Shown here piece after piece: positions 207 through 48,253 of a stretch of 51,268 bases of DNA (the first letter of the stretch is position 1; each line of letters opens with the position of its first letter). This stretch comes from Rhodospirillales bacterium 69-11. Its GTDB lineage: Bacteria > Pseudomonadota > Alphaproteobacteria > Acetobacterales > Acetobacteraceae. The translations under genes and the position numbers were made by a program. The notes below the pieces were generated by a model. The model saw nothing but the letters and a program-made list of their open reading frames with translations, did not search any database and was not told where the DNA came from. The stretch lies in the NCBI GenBank assembly GCA_001898425.1, contig MKTV01000032.1:18871-70138 (forward strand), in the 5' to 3' direction.

Positions 207-1988
207 ATGTTCACGACTCGTCCGGAGATCGCGGGCACGTTCGGCGTCGTCGCGTCGACCCATTGGCTGGCGAGCCAGGTGGGCATGGCGGTGCTGGAGC
301 GCGGCGGCAACGCGTTCGACGCCGCGGCGGCGGCGGGCTTCATGCTGCAGGTCGCGGAACCGCACCTCAACGGGCCGGGCGGCGACGCGCCGATCCTGAT
401 CCACGACGCGCGCGCGGACCGGCAGCACGTGATCTGCGGCCAGGGCGTCTCTCCGGCCGGGGCGACGCTGGGCGCCTTCGCCGATCTGGGGCTCGACCTG
501 ATCCCGGCCACCGGCTTCCTGCCCGCCATGGTCCCGGGCGCCTTCGATGCCTGGTGCCGCATGCTGCGCGACTGGGGCACCTGGGAGCTTTCAGACGTCC
601 TCTCCTACGCGATCGGCTATGCCGAGAACGGGGTACACCTGGTCCCGCGGGTCTGCGCGACGATCGAGGGCGTGCGGCCGCTGTTCCAGCGCGAATGGAC
701 CAGCTCCGCCGCCGTCTTCCTGCCGGACGGCACGACGCCGAAGCCGCACACGCTGTTCCGTCGGCCGTCGCTTGCCGCGACCTGGCAACGGCTGTGCCAC
801 GAGGCGGTCGGATCGACGCGGGAGGCGCGCATCGATGCCGCGCGGAACGCCTGGTATCGCGGCTTCGTCGCCGAGGCGATCGACCGGTTCTTCCGGACCG
901 AGGCGCTCGACGTCACCGGCCGCCGGCACCGCGGGCTGCTGACCGCCGACGACATGGCGAGCTGGGAGGCCGGGGTCGAGCCGCCGCTGGCCTACGACTA
1001 TCATGGCCACACGGTGCTGAAATGCGGCGCTTGGAGCCAGGGCCCGGCCTTCCTGCAGCAGCTCGCGATCCTGCGCGGTTTCAACCTCGATGCGGCCGAC
1101 CCGGTCGGCCCTGAGTTCGTGCACCTGGTGGTCGAGGCCGCCAAGCTCGCCTTCGCCGACCGGGAGGCGTTCTACGGCGATCCGGATTTCGTCGACGTGC
1201 CGATGGAGCACCTGCTCTCCGACTCCTACAACGCCGAACGCCGCGGCCTGATCGGCCAGACCGCCTCGCTCGCGCTGCGCCCCGGTTCGGTGCCGGGTCA
1301 TGTCGGCTGGGTCGACCACGACGCGGCGAGCCGCATCCCGCTGCTGTCGGACCCCGCCGCCGCCGGATCCGGCGAGCCGACGATCGCCCGCATGGGGGTC
1401 AGCGGCGCCGATACCTGCCATGTCGACGTGATCGACCGGTTCGGCAACATGGTCAGCGCCACCCCGTCCGGCGGCTGGCTCCAATCCTCGCCCGTCGTCC
1501 CGGAGCTCGGATTTCCACTGGGCACGCGCGGGCAGATGTTCTGGCTGCGCCCCGGCCTGCCCAACAGCCTGGAGCCACGCAAGCGCCCGCGCACGACGCT
1601 GTCCCCCAGCCTGGCGCTGCGCGACGGCAAGGCGTGGATGGCGTTCGGCACGCCGGGCGGGGAGCAGCAGGACCAGTGGTCGCCGATCATGTTCCTGCGG
1701 ATGGTGCATCACCGCATGACCATCCAGCAGGCGATCGACGCGCCGTCCTTCCACACGGAACACTGGCCGTCGAGCTTCTGGCCCCGCGTCGCGCGTCCCG
1801 GCAAGCTGGTGCTGGAGGGGCGGTTCCCGGACGCCGTGCTGGAGGCACTCCGCCACCGCGGCCATCTGGTCGGGAAAGGGGAGGACTGGAGCGAAGGCCG
1901 GCTCTCCGGTGCGCGGCTGGAGCCGGACGGACAGATGTTCGCCGGTGCCAACCCGCGCGGGATGCAGGGCTACGCGGTGGGGCGCTGA
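207..1988 (+). CDS. Gamma-glutamyltransferase family protein
   Basis: 593 aa from the ATG at 207, preceded by GCAGGGG; a TTG 57 nt upstream is in frame but weaker. It belongs to the N-terminal-nucleophile gamma-glutamyltranspeptidase family: the N-terminal part has the GGNAFDAAAA and GPGGD segments, and the autoprocessing/nucleophile Thr is most likely Thr403 in ADTCHVDVID, with the glycine-rich SGGW segment and TTLSPSL following. Length fits the family. No clear signal peptide is seen, so it may be a cytoplasmic GGT-like amidohydrolase rather than a periplasmic glutathione hydrolase; the substrate is not decided by sequence. Its stop overlaps the start of the next gene (TGATG), so the two are probably translationally coupled. 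Confidence 0.88.
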   Translation: MFTTRPEIAGTFGVVASTHWLASQVGMAVLERGGNAFDAAAAAGFMLQVAEPHLNGPGGDAPILIHDARADRQHVICGQGVSPAGATLGAFADLGLDLIPATGFLPAMVPGAFDAWCRMLRDWGTWELSDVLSYAIGYAENGVHLVPRVCATIEGVRPLFQREWTSSAAVFLPDGTTPKPHTLFRRPSLAATWQRLCHEAVGSTREARIDAARNAWYRGFVAEAIDRFFRTEALDVTGRRHRGLLTADDMASWEAGVEPPLAYDYHGHTVLKCGAWSQGPAFLQQLAILRGFNLDAADPVGPEFVHLVVEAAKLAFADREAFYGDPDFVDVPMEHLLSDSYNAERRGLIGQTASLALRPGSVPGHVGWVDHDAASRIPLLSDPAAAGSGEPTIARMGVSGADTCHVDVIDRFGNMVSATPSGGWLQSSPVVPELGFPLGTRGQMFWLRPGLPNSLEPRKRPRTTLSPSLALRDGKAWMAFGTPGGEQQDQWSPIMFLRMVHHRMTIQQAIDAPSFHTEHWPSSFWPRVARPGKLVLEGRFPDAVLEALRHRGHLVGKGEDWSEGRLSGARLEPDGQMFAGANPRGMQGYAVGR

Positions 1989-43783: not shown

Positions 43784-44692
43784 ATGCCCACGCCGCTGCC
43801 CGCCCTCAGCCTCATCGCCGTCCCCGGCCGCCGCCGGCGCACCATCGAGATCGCCCAGGAGATCGAGCGGCGCGGTTTCGCCGGCATCTACTCCCCGTCG
43901 ATGTTCGGCAACATGTCGCTGTGCGAGGCACTGGCCTGGAACACGACGGACATGCCCTTCGGCACCGCGATCGCGCCGATCTACCAGCGCACGGTCTCCG
44001 ACTTCGCGCAGAGCGCCGCCGTCATGCACGAGATCTCGGGCGGGCGGTTCCGCCTCGGCATCGGCATCGCGCACGGCCCGTCGCATGTGCGCATGGGGGT
44101 CACCCCCGGCAAGCCGCTGGGAGACATACGCGGCTTCGTCGAGCGCTTCCGCGCGCAGGACGGGCTGGGTCCGCTGCCGCCCATCATCATCGCCGCGCTC
44201 CGGCGGAAGATGGTGGCGCTCGCGGGCGAAATCGCCGAAGGCGTGGTCTTCGCCAATGCCTGCCGGTCACACATGGCCGCCTCGCTCGGCGCCCTGCCGC
44301 CCGCCAAGCGGGACGACCCGGACTTCTTCATCGGCAACATGATCCCGACCTGCATCAGCGACGACGTCGAGGCCGCCAAGGCGGTGAACCGGCGCACCCT
44401 GACCAGCTACGGGTTCCTCCCCAACTATCGCAACTACTGGAAGGAAGCGGGCTACGTGGAGGAGATGGAGGCGATCGAGCGCGCGATCGCCGAAGGGCGC
44501 AACGAGGACGTGCCGAAATGCTTCTCCGACCGGTGGCTGGCGGACAACACGCTGTTCGGGCCCGCCGCCAAGGTGCGGGAGGGCGTGGAGGCGTGGCGCG
44601 ACGCGGGCATCCGCACGCCGATCGTGGTGCCGTCCTCGGCCGCCGGAAACCAGCTCAAGGCACTCGAGGAGGTGTTCGCCGCCTTCTCCTGA
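43784..44692 (+). CDS. LLM-class flavin-dependent oxidoreductase
   Basis: 302 aa from ATG 43784; GGAGG lies 11 nt upstream, and a nearer ATG at 43776 is out of frame. Luciferase-like monooxygenase TIM barrel: TIEIAQEIERRGFAGIYSPS, GTAIAPIYQRTVSDFAQSAA, LGIGIAHGPSHVRMG, IIIAALRRKMVALAGEIAEGVVF and NACRSHM are typical of the F420/FMN LLM group. Its cofactor and substrate cannot be told from sequence. Convergent with argD. Confidence 0.87.
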   Translation: MPTPLPALSLIAVPGRRRRTIEIAQEIERRGFAGIYSPSMFGNMSLCEALAWNTTDMPFGTAIAPIYQRTVSDFAQSAAVMHEISGGRFRLGIGIAHGPSHVRMGVTPGKPLGDIRGFVERFRAQDGLGPLPPIIIAALRRKMVALAGEIAEGVVFANACRSHMAASLGALPPAKRDDPDFFIGNMIPTCISDDVEAAKAVNRRTLTSYGFLPNYRNYWKEAGYVEEMEAIERAIAEGRNEDVPKCFSDRWLADNTLFGPAAKVREGVEAWRDAGIRTPIVVPSSAAGNQLKALEEVFAAFS

Positions 44693-44726
44693 GGGATGCA
44701 CGGGCAGGTGCCCGCCCCTGCCGCCC

Positions 44727-44755
44727 GCGCGGGCGAGATCGGATCCCGCCCGCGC
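44727..44755. terminator. 9-bp perfect hairpin between LLM gene and argD
   Basis: GCGCGGGCG, an 11-nt loop, CGCCCGCGC, in the 69-bp gap between two convergent genes. No U-tract; probably marks the end of both transcripts. Confidence 0.5.
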
Positions 44756-44761
44756 CTTCGG

Positions 44762-45985
44762 CTACCCCGCGGTCACCTCGCCCAGCACGGCGTCGAGGAC
44801 TTCGATCATCTCCTCCACCTCCGCCGTCCCGATCGTCAGGGCCGGCATGAAGCGCAGGCTGTCGGGCCGCGGCGCATTCAGCAGCAGCCCGCGCGCGAGC
44901 GCGAGTTCCACGACGGCCGGACCGACCGGCCGCTCGAGGTCGAGCGCCAGCAGCAATCCCTGGCCCCGCACCCCGCCGCAGCCGTGCTTCGCCGAGAGCG
45001 CGGTGAGCCGATCCGCGAGATACGCGCCCATCTGCGCGACCCGTTCCAGGAACCCCGGCGCCGCGATCGTCTCCATCACCGCGCATCCCGCCGCGGCGGC
45101 GAGCGGATTGCCGCCGAACGTGCTGCCCTGGTCGCCATGCGCGAACACCGCCGCCGCTTCGGTCGCGACCAGAGCCGCGAGGGGGACGCCGCCGCCGACG
45201 CCCTTGCCCAGGGTCATGATATCCGGGCGGATTCCGGCGTGCTCGAAGGCGAAGAACCGGCCGGTGCGGCCGATCCCCGTCTGGATCTCATCCAGGATCA
45301 GCAACAGCCCGTGCTGCTCGGTCAGCGCGCGCAGGCCGCGCAGGAACGGGACGGTCGCCGGGAACACGCCCGCCTCTCCCTGGATCGGCTCCAGCATGAC
45401 GGCGACCGTACGCGGGCCGATCGCGGCCTCCACCGCGGCAAGGTCGTTCAGCGGCACCTTCCTGAAGCCCGAGACCTTGGGCTCGAACAGGCTCTCCCAG
45501 GCCGGCTTGCCGGAGGCCGACATGGTGGCCAGCGTCCGGCCGTGGAAGCCGTGGTCCATGGTGATGATCTCGAACGCGCCGTCCCGATGCAGCGCGCCCC
45601 ACTTGCGGGCGAGCTTGATGGCGCCCTCGTTCGCCTCGGCGCCGCTGTTGCACAGGAAGACGCGGTCCATCCCGCTCTGCTGCGCGATCAACGTGCAGAG
45701 CCGCACCATCTGGTCGTTGTAGAAGGCCGGGCTGGGACTGAGCAGGGTGGCGGCCTGGCGCGTCAGCGCGGACACCAGCGCGGGATGCGAGTGACCGAGG
45801 CAGTTCACCGCCCAGCCCTGGATGAAGTCGAGATAGCGCCGGCCGGCGGTATCGGCGAGCCAGGAGCCCTCGCCCGACGCGAAGACGATGGGCGGACGGG
45901 CCGTCACCTCCATCACGGCGAGCGTATCGGGCACGGCCCCGGCTGGGGGTGGGGCGACGGTTTCCGGGGAAACGAGATCGTTCAT
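44762..45985 (-). CDS. argD: Acetylornithine aminotransferase (ArgD, class III)
   Basis: 407 aa from ATG 45985. PLP enzyme converting N-acetylglutamate semialdehyde to acetylornithine in arginine synthesis. [82 protein letters not shown], and the Schiff-base Lys261 in [14 protein letters not shown] then [12 protein letters not shown] match ArgD. A class III aminotransferase of GABA or succinylornithine type is possible but less likely. No other arg gene is near. Upstream lie an arginine-rich leader frame and a terminator at 46028-46184, so expression probably follows arginine-tRNA charging. Confidence 0.88.
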
Positions 45986-46027
45986 GGGTGGGATCCTCTG
46001 CTCTGGAAGACACGGCAGAGGTCCCGG

Positions 46028-46071
46028 AAAAAACACCAAGGCCCCCGCCGTTGCCGACGGGGGCCTTGGTG
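46028..46071 (-). terminator. Intrinsic terminator (attenuator) in front of argD
   Basis: On the minus strand CACCAAGGCCCCCG, a 10-nt loop, CGGGGGCCTTGGTG, then TTTTTT: a 14-bp stem with a six-U tail, the strongest intrinsic terminator in the window. It lies between a small arginine-rich frame and argD, 43 nt before the argD ATG, so it must be read through for argD to be made. Its 5' arm can pair instead with 46129-46137. Confidence 0.9.
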
Positions 46072-46100
46072 CTCGATCCGTGTTGCCGGCGCTTCGGTCG

Positions 46101-46184
46101 CTAGACCTCGCGCAGGCGCGAACCCACCGCCCCCGTCCAGGGACGACGGCGTCGCAGGCTGCGCGGTGCGGTCACGATCGGCAT
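46101..46184 (-). CDS. Arginine-rich leader peptide of the argD attenuator
   Basis: 27 codons from ATG 46184 to TAG 46101. The peptide has [12 protein letters not shown], with four consecutive Arg codons (CGA CGC CGT CGT, 46154-46143) and three more Arg codons at positions 8, 23 and 25: seven of 27 residues. The Arg run lies just before the segment GACGGGGGC that could form the antiterminator. No ribosome site precedes the ATG; the distance from the TTGACA box suggests the transcript begins at or near the A of the ATG, as in the leaderless trp leader of Sinorhizobium. No other gene known to me matches. Confidence 0.75.
46129..46137 (-). promoter_or_regulatory. Antiterminator segment of the argD attenuator
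   Basis: Minus-strand GACGGGGGC, overlapping codons 16-19 of the leader, is the exact complement of GCCCCCGTC in the 5' arm of the terminator (46056-46064). Nine perfect GC-rich pairs. Formation would stop the terminator. The Arg codons immediately upstream can themselves pair with it weakly (CGTC/GACG), as segment 1 of an attenuator would. Confidence 0.7.
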
Positions 46185-46185
46185 G

Positions 46186-46220
46186 GCCGCACCCTGCCGG
46201 TCACCGCGCCGGTTTGTCAA
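46186..46220 (-). promoter_or_regulatory. Candidate promoter of the argD leader
   Basis: A perfect TTGACA at 46220-46215 on the minus strand. With an 18-nt spacer the -10 would be CAGGGT (46196-46191), a poor but tolerable hexamer for a GC-rich alphaproteobacterium, which would put the start at about the A of the leader ATG (46184). The TGA of the small protein gene upstream lies inside the TTGACA box. Confidence 0.55.
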
Positions 46221-46393
46221 CGCGCGTGCAGCGGTCCGGGCGGCAGGTCGCGCGGGACCGGGATCGGGGACGGCGGCTCCTGCACGGGGATCGGATCATC
46301 CGGATCGGGGTCGGGATCGGGTCCCGGCACTGGTGGAACGGGCGGGTCGGACAGGCGCAGCGGCCAGCGATGGGACAGGATGTGCTTCGTCAT
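46217..46393 (-). CDS. Small Pro/Asp-rich protein
   Basis: 58 aa from ATG 46393 with GGAGGG three bases upstream. N-terminus TKHILSHRWPLRLS, then a Pro-, Asp- and Val-rich tail: PPVPPVPGPDPDPDPDDPIP and EPPSPIPVPRDLPPGP. No Cys, no membrane span. Short Pro/Asp-rich proteins of this kind are common in alphaproteobacteria and unannotated functionally. The frame may be real given the ribosome site, but its repetitive composition could also come from GC-biased DNA. Confidence 0.45.
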   Translation of the reverse strand: MTKHILSHRWPLRLSDPPVPPVPGPDPDPDPDDPIPVQEPPSPIPVPRDLPPGPLHAR

Positions 46394-46729
46394 GTCCCTC
46401 CAATGCAGCGCGGCGGCCGCGGTTGCGGTCGGGCACGGAAAAGTCGCCGCAACCCGCCCACCTCGCGTGGGCGCCGCATGCGACATCCCCTGCCCCAAGC
46501 TGGCCGCACACTGGCCATCACCGGCGCGTCGCCGTTCCCATCGACGCTCGGGACGGGCAGACGATCCTGAACGAGGCGCCTCGCTCCGGGTCTCGAGGGC
46601 CGAGCCGATCCCGGCCGTAACGTCACGGCTGGACTACCGCGGGGCGTTACGCCGCCGACCGTGACGCCGAGAGCCGCCGGGGCGCGCGGCCGTCCCCCAT
46701 CGGCCTCCGGCGGAGAACGGCCGAGCGGC
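46394..46729. other. 336-bp region between the small protein gene and the galactarate dehydratase gene end
   Basis: Mainly GC-rich sequence with no clear ribosome site, hairpin or repeat. Short frames exist on both strands but none has a recognisable composition. I see nothing here beyond possible promoter sequence for the small Pro/Asp-rich gene. Confidence 0.35.
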
Positions 46730-48253
46730 CTACATCGTGGCGCCGATCACCCAGGGGGCGAACTCGGCGGCGCCGAAGTCGAAGGTCTCGCTCTTGGTGC
46801 GCTCGCCACTGGCGACCCGCAGCATCATGTCGAAGATCCGCTGCCCGCATTCCTGCACGGTCTCGTCGCCGTCCAGCACGGTGCCGCAGTTCACGTCCAT
46901 GTCGTCTTCGATGTGCCTGAACATCGGGGTGTTGGTGGCCAGCTTGATCGAGGGGGCGGGCTTGCAGCCGAACACCGATCCGCGGCCCGTCGTGAAGCAC
47001 ACCAGATTCGCGCCACCCGCAACCTGGCCGGTCGCCGCGACCGGGTCGTAGCCGGGCGTATCCATGAAGACGAAGCCGCGGGCGCGGACTTCTTCCGCGT
47101 ATTGCACCACGTCGACCAGGTTGGTGCTGCCCGCCTTGGCCATCGCGCCCAGCGACTTCTCGAGGATCGTGGTGAGCCCGCCCGCCTTGTTCCCCGGGGA
47201 GGGGTTGGCGTTCATCTCCGCCTTTTCGCGTTCGGTGTATTCCTCCCACCAGCGCATCAGCGCGACCAGCTTCTCCCCCACCGGCTGGGAGACGGCGCGG
47301 CGGGTCAGCAGATGTTCGGCGCCGTAGGTTTCGGGCGTCTCGGACAGGATGACCGTGCCGCCATGGCGCACCAGCAGGTCGCTCGCGGCGCCGAGGGCGG
47401 GGTTGGCGGAGACGCCGGAATACCCATCGGAGCCGCCGCATTGCAGGGCGACCGTCAGCTCCGACGCGGGGACCGTCTCGCGCTTGACCTGGTTGGCCTC
47501 GACCAGCACCTCGCGCACGAAGGCGGCGGCGGCTTCCACGGTCTTGCGCGTGCCGCCCATGGTCTGGATGTCCATGGCCTTGAGCCGGCCGGCCAGGCGC
47601 TGCTCCTCCATGAGCCCGCCGATCTGGTTCACCTCGCAGCCGAGGCCCAGGACGATCACGTGCGAGAAGTTCGGATGGCGCGCGTACCCGGCGAGGGTGC
47701 GGCGCAGCAGCCGGAGCGGCTCGTCCTGCGTCATGCCGCAGCCGGTCTTGTGGGTGAGCGCGACGACGCCGTCCACGTTGGGGAACTCGGCCAGCGGATC
47801 ATGGCCGCTGAACGGGTTGCGGCGGAACAGGTCGGCGACCATCCCGGCGACATGCGCCGAGCAGTTCACGCTGGTGAGGATGCCGATGTAGTTGCGGGTG
47901 GCGACGCGGCCGTCGGGGCGGCGGATGCCCTGGAACGTGGCCGGGGTCGCGAAGAAATCGGTGGGCTTCGCGTCCACGCCATAGGCGTAGTCCTTGGCGA
48001 AGTCGCCCATCTCGCAGTTATGCACGTGCACGTGCTGGCCGGGCGAGATCGGCTGGCTGGCGAAGCCGATGATCTGGCCATAGCGGCGGATCGGTTCGGC
48101 CTTCGCGATCGCGCGGACCGCGACCTTGTGGCCGGCGGGGATGCGGTCGGTGGTGGCGACGTTGTCCCCGACCGAGGTTCCCGGCAGCAAGGTCGCGCGG
48201 GCGATCACCACGCTGTCGTCCGGATGCAGGCGGATCACGGGGGTCGGGGCCAT
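46730..48253 (-). CDS. UxaA/GarD-family sugar-acid dehydratase (galactarate or altronate)
   Basis: 507 aa. N-terminal SAF domain (VIRLHPDDSVVIARATLLPG, 1-90, with GQHVHVHNCEMGDF) and the large dehydratase domain: GIRRPDGRVATRNYIGILTSVNCSAHVA, LTHKTGCGMTQDEP, GLGCEVNQIGGLME, ALQCGGSDGYSGVSANPALG, FMDTPGYDPVAATGQVAGGANLVCFTTGRGSVFG, all family hallmarks with conserved Cys residues. It dehydrates altronate or galactarate to a 2-keto-3-deoxy acid. The aldolase gene sits 51 bp before it on the same strand, favouring galactarate-type chemistry. Confidence 0.9.
   Translation of the reverse strand: MAPTPVIRLHPDDSVVIARATLLPGTSVGDNVATTDRIPAGHKVAVRAIAKAEPIRRYGQIIGFASQPISPGQHVHVHNCEMGDFAKDYAYGVDAKPTDFFATPATFQGIRRPDGRVATRNYIGILTSVNCSAHVAGMVADLFRRNPFSGHDPLAEFPNVDGVVALTHKTGCGMTQDEPLRLLRRTLAGYARHPNFSHVIVLGLGCEVNQIGGLMEEQRLAGRLKAMDIQTMGGTRKTVEAAAAFVREVLVEANQVKRETVPASELTVALQCGGSDGYSGVSANPALGAASDLLVRHGGTVILSETPETYGAEHLLTRRAVSQPVGEKLVALMRWWEEYTEREKAEMNANPSPGNKAGGLTTILEKSLGAMAKAGSTNLVDVVQYAEEVRARGFVFMDTPGYDPVAATGQVAGGANLVCFTTGRGSVFGCKPAPSIKLATNTPMFRHIEDDMDVNCGTVLDGDETVQECGQRIFDMMLRVASGERTKSETFDFGAAEFAPWVIGATM

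Follow-up and report, generated by a model that had tools for sequence, protein, structure and literature searches.

Organization of the region upstream of argD

The window, which is the whole stretch of 51,268 nucleotides analysed here, carries on its minus strand argD, the gene for acetylornithine transaminase. Read towards the gene, this strand presents a TTGACA hexamer, a short Arg-rich frame, a terminator and then argD. The features are the following.

46220-46215, minus strand: -35 element TTGACA, 36 nt ahead of the leader frame
ATG 46184 to TAG 46103-46101, minus strand: leader peptide frame of 27 codons, under coding constraint and with frame-preserving gaps in orthologs
46154-46143, minus strand: Arg run CGA CGC CGU CGU, the proposed stall site, with Arg runs in orthologs
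46154-46141, minus strand: segment 1, which pairs with segment 2 in a protector hairpin
46137-46129, minus strand: segment 2, the antiterminator half GACGGGGGC, an exact 9-nt complement of segment 3
46064-46056, minus strand: segment 3, GCCCCCGUC, within the 5′ arm of the terminator
about 46073-46032, minus strand: intrinsic terminator hairpin with six U, the tract ending at 46028
44762-45985, minus strand: argD, matching NF002985/PRK03715 at 608.5 bits (cut-off 568)

When the sequence was re-read, the TTGACA element and the start and stop codons of the frame lay exactly where the original prediction had placed them, and the frame contained the seven Arg codons claimed, four of them consecutive (RRRR, codons 11-14). 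Two details had to be amended. The nine-base complement to the 5′ arm of the terminator is exact, but a 5-nt gap separates it from the last Arg codon, which it had been said to follow directly. The terminator, described as a 14-bp stem followed by six U, does have its six U but a longer stem of 17-20 pairs, the number varying with the fold. The energy of the hairpin 46072-46034 is -38.5 kcal/mol and that computed for the duplex of segments 1 and 2 is -19.8 kcal/mol. As a whole, the 171-nt leader stretch folds at -109.4 kcal/mol compared to -82.1 in shuffles (z of -6.4), and none of 200 shuffles was as low. The whole window holds seven RRRR frames that start with ATG and are 8-50 codons long, and a strong terminator lies just 3′ of one of them, the argD leader.

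A -10 element read by eye is weak (CAGGGT, with an 18-nt spacer). A consensus scan of positions 44000-48000 listed neither a sigma-70 promoter nor a terminator. The missing promoter is consistent with the poor -10 element, and the missing terminator is probably a matter of definition, since the pairing extends into the first U and fewer than five T remain 3′ of the stem. It is plausible that the leader RNA is leaderless and starts at the AUG of the leader frame. The attenuator RNA of Sinorhizobium meliloti trpL starts in this manner according to PMC10117765. It is likewise alphaproteobacterial, but it concerns tryptophan and its start is known, while that of the argD leader would follow from the sequence.

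Conservation of the leader among argD genes

Thirty-two other genomes of the window's genus were available for comparison. Nine leaders of the window's lineage were aligned: that of the window, five orthologs (69-90% identity) and L035, L039 and L040 from Acetobacteraceae. In all nine, a run of 3-6 Arg, the complement and a hairpin resembling a terminator are retained, with TTGAC located 35-37 nt ahead of the leader ATG, as had been anticipated for an alignment of upstream regions. The U tract is poor in three of them (L007, L035 and L039). The segment GACGGGGG is common to the lineage leaders, with GACGAGGG in L040. Ahead of the stop codon, the gaps in this alignment and in that of the Bradyrhizobium-type leaders are all multiples of three, while those beyond it include gaps of 1, 2, 5, 7 and 17. 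The leader frame is under coding constraint. The retention of the parts in nine leaders and the constraint on the frame support the proposal that their order, ahead of an arginine gene, is that of an attenuator.

The pairing of segment 2 with the terminator arm was assessed in several ways. Across the nine-sequence alignment, 97.5% of the 81 cells of the nine antiterminator pairs hold a standard pair, compared to at most 63% when the pairs are slid, and six of the pairs are invariant; counting pairs within the lineage is too invariant for strong evidence. A single pair shows a compensatory change, G-C to A-U in L040, which is not significant alone since such a change also arises in 68 of 500 shuffles. 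Swap and shuffle tests of the antiterminator used two sets of limits. Segment 2 forms a stronger duplex with its own arm than with any arm of another lineage in 8 of the 9 lineage leaders, as compared with 1 of 22 others (L044). For the window itself, the antiterminator energy gave p = 0.18 against shuffles of the whole region and loop, and p = 0.015 with narrower limits. At p ≤ 0.05, the wide limits retained 6 of 9 lineage leaders, 1 of 10 Bradyrhizobium-type leaders and 2 of 12 others; the narrow limits retained 8 of 9 and 2 of 22 others. Given these outcomes by lineage, the antiterminator appears well supported by conservation in the lineage of the window only and plausible elsewhere. In the Bradyrhizobium-type alignment, which also includes the RR-type L084, pairs were read by eye only.

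A covariance model, R1, matched six leaders over their full length, each scoring at least 114 bits and each lying before argD of the window's type. Two further matches in the genome of the window (C56, C45) are not leaders of the Arg-run kind, and the argC leader was not reported by the model. Among the weaker matches, several are leaders for other amino acids. Those of L125, L126, L131, L132, L134 and L135 (1501 onward) hold short Lys-codon frames, mostly with SKK, followed by a terminator; the downstream gene belongs to the dihydrodipicolinate synthase family in L125 and L132, which were scanned, and, judged by eye, a similar gene follows in L126, L134 and L135. These are likely a lysine counterpart. 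In L124 (about 1449-1584, reverse strand), a Thr-rich short frame and a terminator precede a gene for a class II tRNA synthetase that resembles thrS. L149 and L150 carry a small frame starting MCETNPIVTRRG and a terminator, the next gene in L149, from the window's genome, encoding a methyltransferase-domain protein. L130 (1501-1592, reverse strand) is an apparent relic of the argD leader, shortened between two GACGGGGG repeats, in G020, a 77% complete genome where argD of the window's type was not found. In L006, three tandem 22-nt units (CCTTCCAACGACGTCCAACCAG) lie between the terminator and argD. No T-box or other Rfam family matched the window at gathering thresholds. At E ≤ 1, nothing was found over the leaders of L002, L004, L006, L026, L027, L030 and L031, and the only matches at nine loci were two weak ones to cspA, both outside the leaders.

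A wider survey covered 90 regions upstream of argD relatives with about 59-90% identity, their type being assigned by similarity and the argD family scanned in three loci (the window, L050 and L063). From 80 named loci, L032, L036, L037 and L038 had been dropped as belonging to the same contigs as L002, L004, L003 and L005, and 90 regions remained; the set includes records of Bradyrhizobium, Tardiphaga, Trinickia, Burkholderia, Paraburkholderia and Pandoraea. Frames that open with ATG and hold RRR or more occur in 45 of the 90 regions, compared to 13 of 90 antisense and a shuffle mean of 4.8 (maximum 10). With at least RRRR the count is 26, compared to 1 of 90 antisense and a mean of 0.7 (maximum 3) over 40 shuffles. 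Control 330-nt windows of the same loci gave RRR in 169 of 2,824 and RRRR in 19 of 2,824. Among the 45 RRR regions, L074, L078, L090 and perhaps L055 look like chance. The conserved frame expected in homologs holds in the Acetobacteraceae lineage. Homologs without it, which the original prediction had named as evidence against itself, occur in more distant lineages: RRR frames are absent from the Dechloromonas, Zoogloea, Bordetella, Achromobacter, Magnetococcales and Geobacter-type loci and from 4 of the 5 Castellaniella loci surveyed. Conversely, the scope first given to the leader was too narrow, as related Arg-run leaders also precede argD in Bradyrhizobium and in Burkholderiaceae, among some betaproteobacteria, and are found before argC as well.

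From the survey, 31 leaders were chosen by hand: 28 of the 45 RRR regions together with L086, L088 and L100, which have RR and were added by eye. Left out were near-duplicates (L034, L047, L051, L068, L087, L095, L109), leaders regarded as having no U-tract terminator (L042, L043, L112, L114, L116, L117) and the doubtful frames (L055, L074, L078, L090). Counts over these hand-chosen leaders are descriptive: TTGAC stands 33-41 nt ahead of the ATG in 27 of the 31, and the 18 nt ahead of the ATG contain a Shine-Dalgarno-like string in one.

These data bear on two other explanations. In GC-rich DNA Arg codons are common, as the control and antisense counts of RRR illustrate, and the hairpin could be the terminator of an upstream transcript next to which an Arg frame occurs by chance. 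The arrangement is nevertheless found before argD in 9 of 9 lineage loci with a nearly fixed TTGAC distance. On the RRRR counts of the survey, the TTGAC spacing and the single terminator behind seven RRRR frames in the window, chance and upstream termination were rejected as extremely unlikely. Alternatively, the Arg run could be the by-product of an RNA helix, CGACGCCGUCGUCC being kept only to pair with GGACGGGGGCGG in a terminator that is constitutive or controlled by a protein or ligand. Segments 1 and 2 do pair, and pairing could also dictate the exclusive use of CGU, CGC and CGA in the run. However, a helix accounts poorly for in-frame gaps that are all multiples of three, for the TTGAC spacing among the chosen leaders, or for Arg runs that persist despite differing flanks in Bradyrhizobium, Burkholderiaceae and some second argD copies; we regard it as very improbable.

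Five of the leaders set aside (L042, L043, L114, L116 and L117) end in RRRA plus one or two residues. The terminator listing gave none for L042, L043, L114 and L117 and a weak one for L116. When the whole leader was folded, the region ahead of the argD start was engaged in a hairpin with an upstream complement in 5 of 5, which suggests translational control of argD in these leaders; the last 75 nt of L114 folded alone adopt a different structure.

Folding of the leader RNA and a model for attenuation

The leader combines consecutive codons for the end product of the pathway with an intrinsic terminator between frame and gene, and on these features it is predicted to work like a trp- or his-type attenuator. 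We consider it probable that it is a ribosome-mediated transcription attenuator which senses charged tRNA-Arg and controls argD. Transcription would start at, or a few bases from, the leader AUG, and a ribosome would translate the 27-codon frame while RNA polymerase advances. If Arg-tRNA is scarce, the ribosome would stall on one of the first two codons of the run, covering segment 1; segment 2 could then pair with the 5′ arm of the terminator, allowing read-through into argD. If Arg-tRNA is ample, the ribosome would reach the stop codon, the hairpin of segments 1 and 2 would close behind it, and the terminator would form and stop transcription. The argD leader is thereby expected to respond to arginine.

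Folding of the leader RNA in its two states, proposed with the original prediction, was carried out on the window leader with assumed ribosome footprints. For a transcript ending at 46050, masking to 46141 or 46138 (stall at Arg 11 or 12) gave the antiterminator as the predicted fold, at -50.0 kcal/mol. Masking to 46135 (stall at Arg 13) left a shortened antiterminator, at -42.9 kcal/mol, and masking to 46132 (stall at Arg 14) abolished it. With the footprint at the stop codon, the hairpin of segments 1 and 2 formed instead of the antiterminator. The masked folds therefore fit the two expected states, and an antiterminator that excludes the terminator and becomes available when a ribosome occupies the key codons. 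With no ribosome on the transcript to 46050, the antiterminator is the favoured fold at equilibrium. Thus the terminated state would require that segments 1 and 2 pair first, co-transcriptionally.

The codons of the Arg runs were compared with those of the genes downstream. In the 31 leaders the 113 run codons comprise 53 CGC, 38 CGU and 22 CGA, with no CGG, AGA or AGG, although the leaders are related and these counts are not independent. Over the first 300 argD codons of the same loci, CGA accounts for 14 of 429 Arg codons, and CGG, AGA and AGG together for 139 of 429. One tRNA-Arg isoacceptor reads CGU, CGC and CGA. Base pairing could contribute to the choice of run codons. By eye, the leader peptides of different lineages have little in common outside the Arg run, which favours sensing of the codons.

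The same comparison is relevant to a mechanism in which the stall is caused not by a shortage of charged tRNA-Arg but by the nascent Arg-rich peptide itself, either through a polybasic pause or because the peptide binds free arginine or ornithine. Polybasic runs can slow ribosomes, which speaks for such stalling; ligand-sensing arrest peptides usually need specific residues, and no motif beyond Arg was seen to be common to the peptides of different lineages. A precedent is the orf34 leader of Salmonella speF, which, according to PMC6386406, ties arginine to a short frame whose two consecutive Arg codons sense it. That leader differs from the one described here in that it controls ornithine decarboxylase via Rho, RNase G and alternative mRNA folds, with no intrinsic terminator before an arginine-synthesis gene. 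We judge peptide stalling very improbable, and prefer sensing of charged tRNA-Arg.

Other arginine genes, ArgR and known attenuators

Leaders were also sought before other arginine genes. Matches to argC exceeded the TIGR01850 cut-off in 4 of 9 chosen genomes, the other five giving sub-cut-off matches only. An Arg-run leader and a hairpin with T5 precede argC in the window's genome (G000), in G025 and in G030. No Arg-run leader was found before argC of Bradyrhizobium sp. BTAi1 (L153), nor was such an ATG frame with a terminator found at eight argC loci elsewhere in the class (L180-L187); in L183 the frame with RRR opens with TTG, and a T8 run is present. No convincing leader was observed before argG (9 loci), argF (8), argJ (7) or argB (7).

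In relatives, 23 other argD loci (L008-L030) were examined. Three of them (L026, L027 and L030) carry a leader that combines RRRR with a hairpin and U tract, and R1 identified a fourth of this kind before a second argD copy (L133). L026, L030 and L011 belong to the NF002325 type of argD, L011 being without the RRRR leader. Upstream of conventional argD in L009, L011-L016, L018-L022, L024, L025, L028 and L029, a different conserved element follows TTTGAC, approximately GGACCCGCCCCGAAAGGTCGCGGGCGGGTGATCC. It forms a hairpin, has no conserved frame by eye, and gave no Rfam match in L011 and L015, the two loci scanned. In G000, neither an ornithine carbamoyltransferase above the cut-off nor a conventional argD was found; its relative G030 has both. 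This lack in G000 is either an assembly gap or a real loss.

ArgR (PF01316) was detected in 0 of 59 relatives and 0 of the 9 chosen genomes, four genomes being common to both sets, by a search that was positive in 9 of 14 controls; the nine include Bradyrhizobium sp. BTAi1 and four betaproteobacteria. In the broadest reading, Arg leader peptides would take the place of ArgR widely among alpha- and betaproteobacteria. A run of codons served by one tRNA-Arg isoacceptor would act as the sensor before argC and two kinds of argD, and the output would be an intrinsic terminator in some lineages and sequestration of the argD ribosome-binding site in another. This reading is weakened by the second argD loci, of which 3 of 23, not most, carry the leader, and we offer it tentatively, at just under even chances.

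Leader-peptide attenuators for amino acids are known for trp, his, leu, ilv, thr and phe. The argD leader resembles these classic attenuators in its promoter, its frame rich in the regulated amino acid, its alternative pairings, its intrinsic terminator and its biosynthetic gene, and differs from them in being concerned with arginine and argD. Proteobacterial attenuators were reportedly surveyed by Vitreschak and others in 2004. Among the regulators named in PMC1262725 are T-boxes for arginine, as well as histidine, threonine and phenylalanine attenuators. The words "arginine" and "argD" are absent from the main text of PMC2965389. Searches of open-access papers, judged by title and start of abstract, listed no leader-peptide attenuator of argD or argC.

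Two further systems can be compared. The carA leader of Pseudomonas aeruginosa (cited in PMC4997734) has a leader peptide, a proposed attenuation and a gene feeding arginine synthesis, but its attenuation is tied to pyrimidines, arginine acting at the transcriptional level. The uORFC-8-2 motif of Rhodobacterales cysS (PMC8632094) is, like the argD leader, a ribosome-mediated attenuator predicted in alphaproteobacteria by comparative genomics; unlike it, the motif has cysteine codons and precedes an aminoacyl-tRNA synthetase gene.

According to PMC5343134, many gammaproteobacterial groups have a conserved ArgR, and the repressor is missing from every other proteobacterial class analysed there, which raises the question of how alpha- and betaproteobacteria control arginine synthesis. 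A conserved Arg-codon attenuator would be a testable answer for argD, and perhaps for argC, in bacteria without ArgR. Arginine would thereby join the amino acids sensed by classic attenuation, and there would be lineages where one Arg sensor may drive different output switches.
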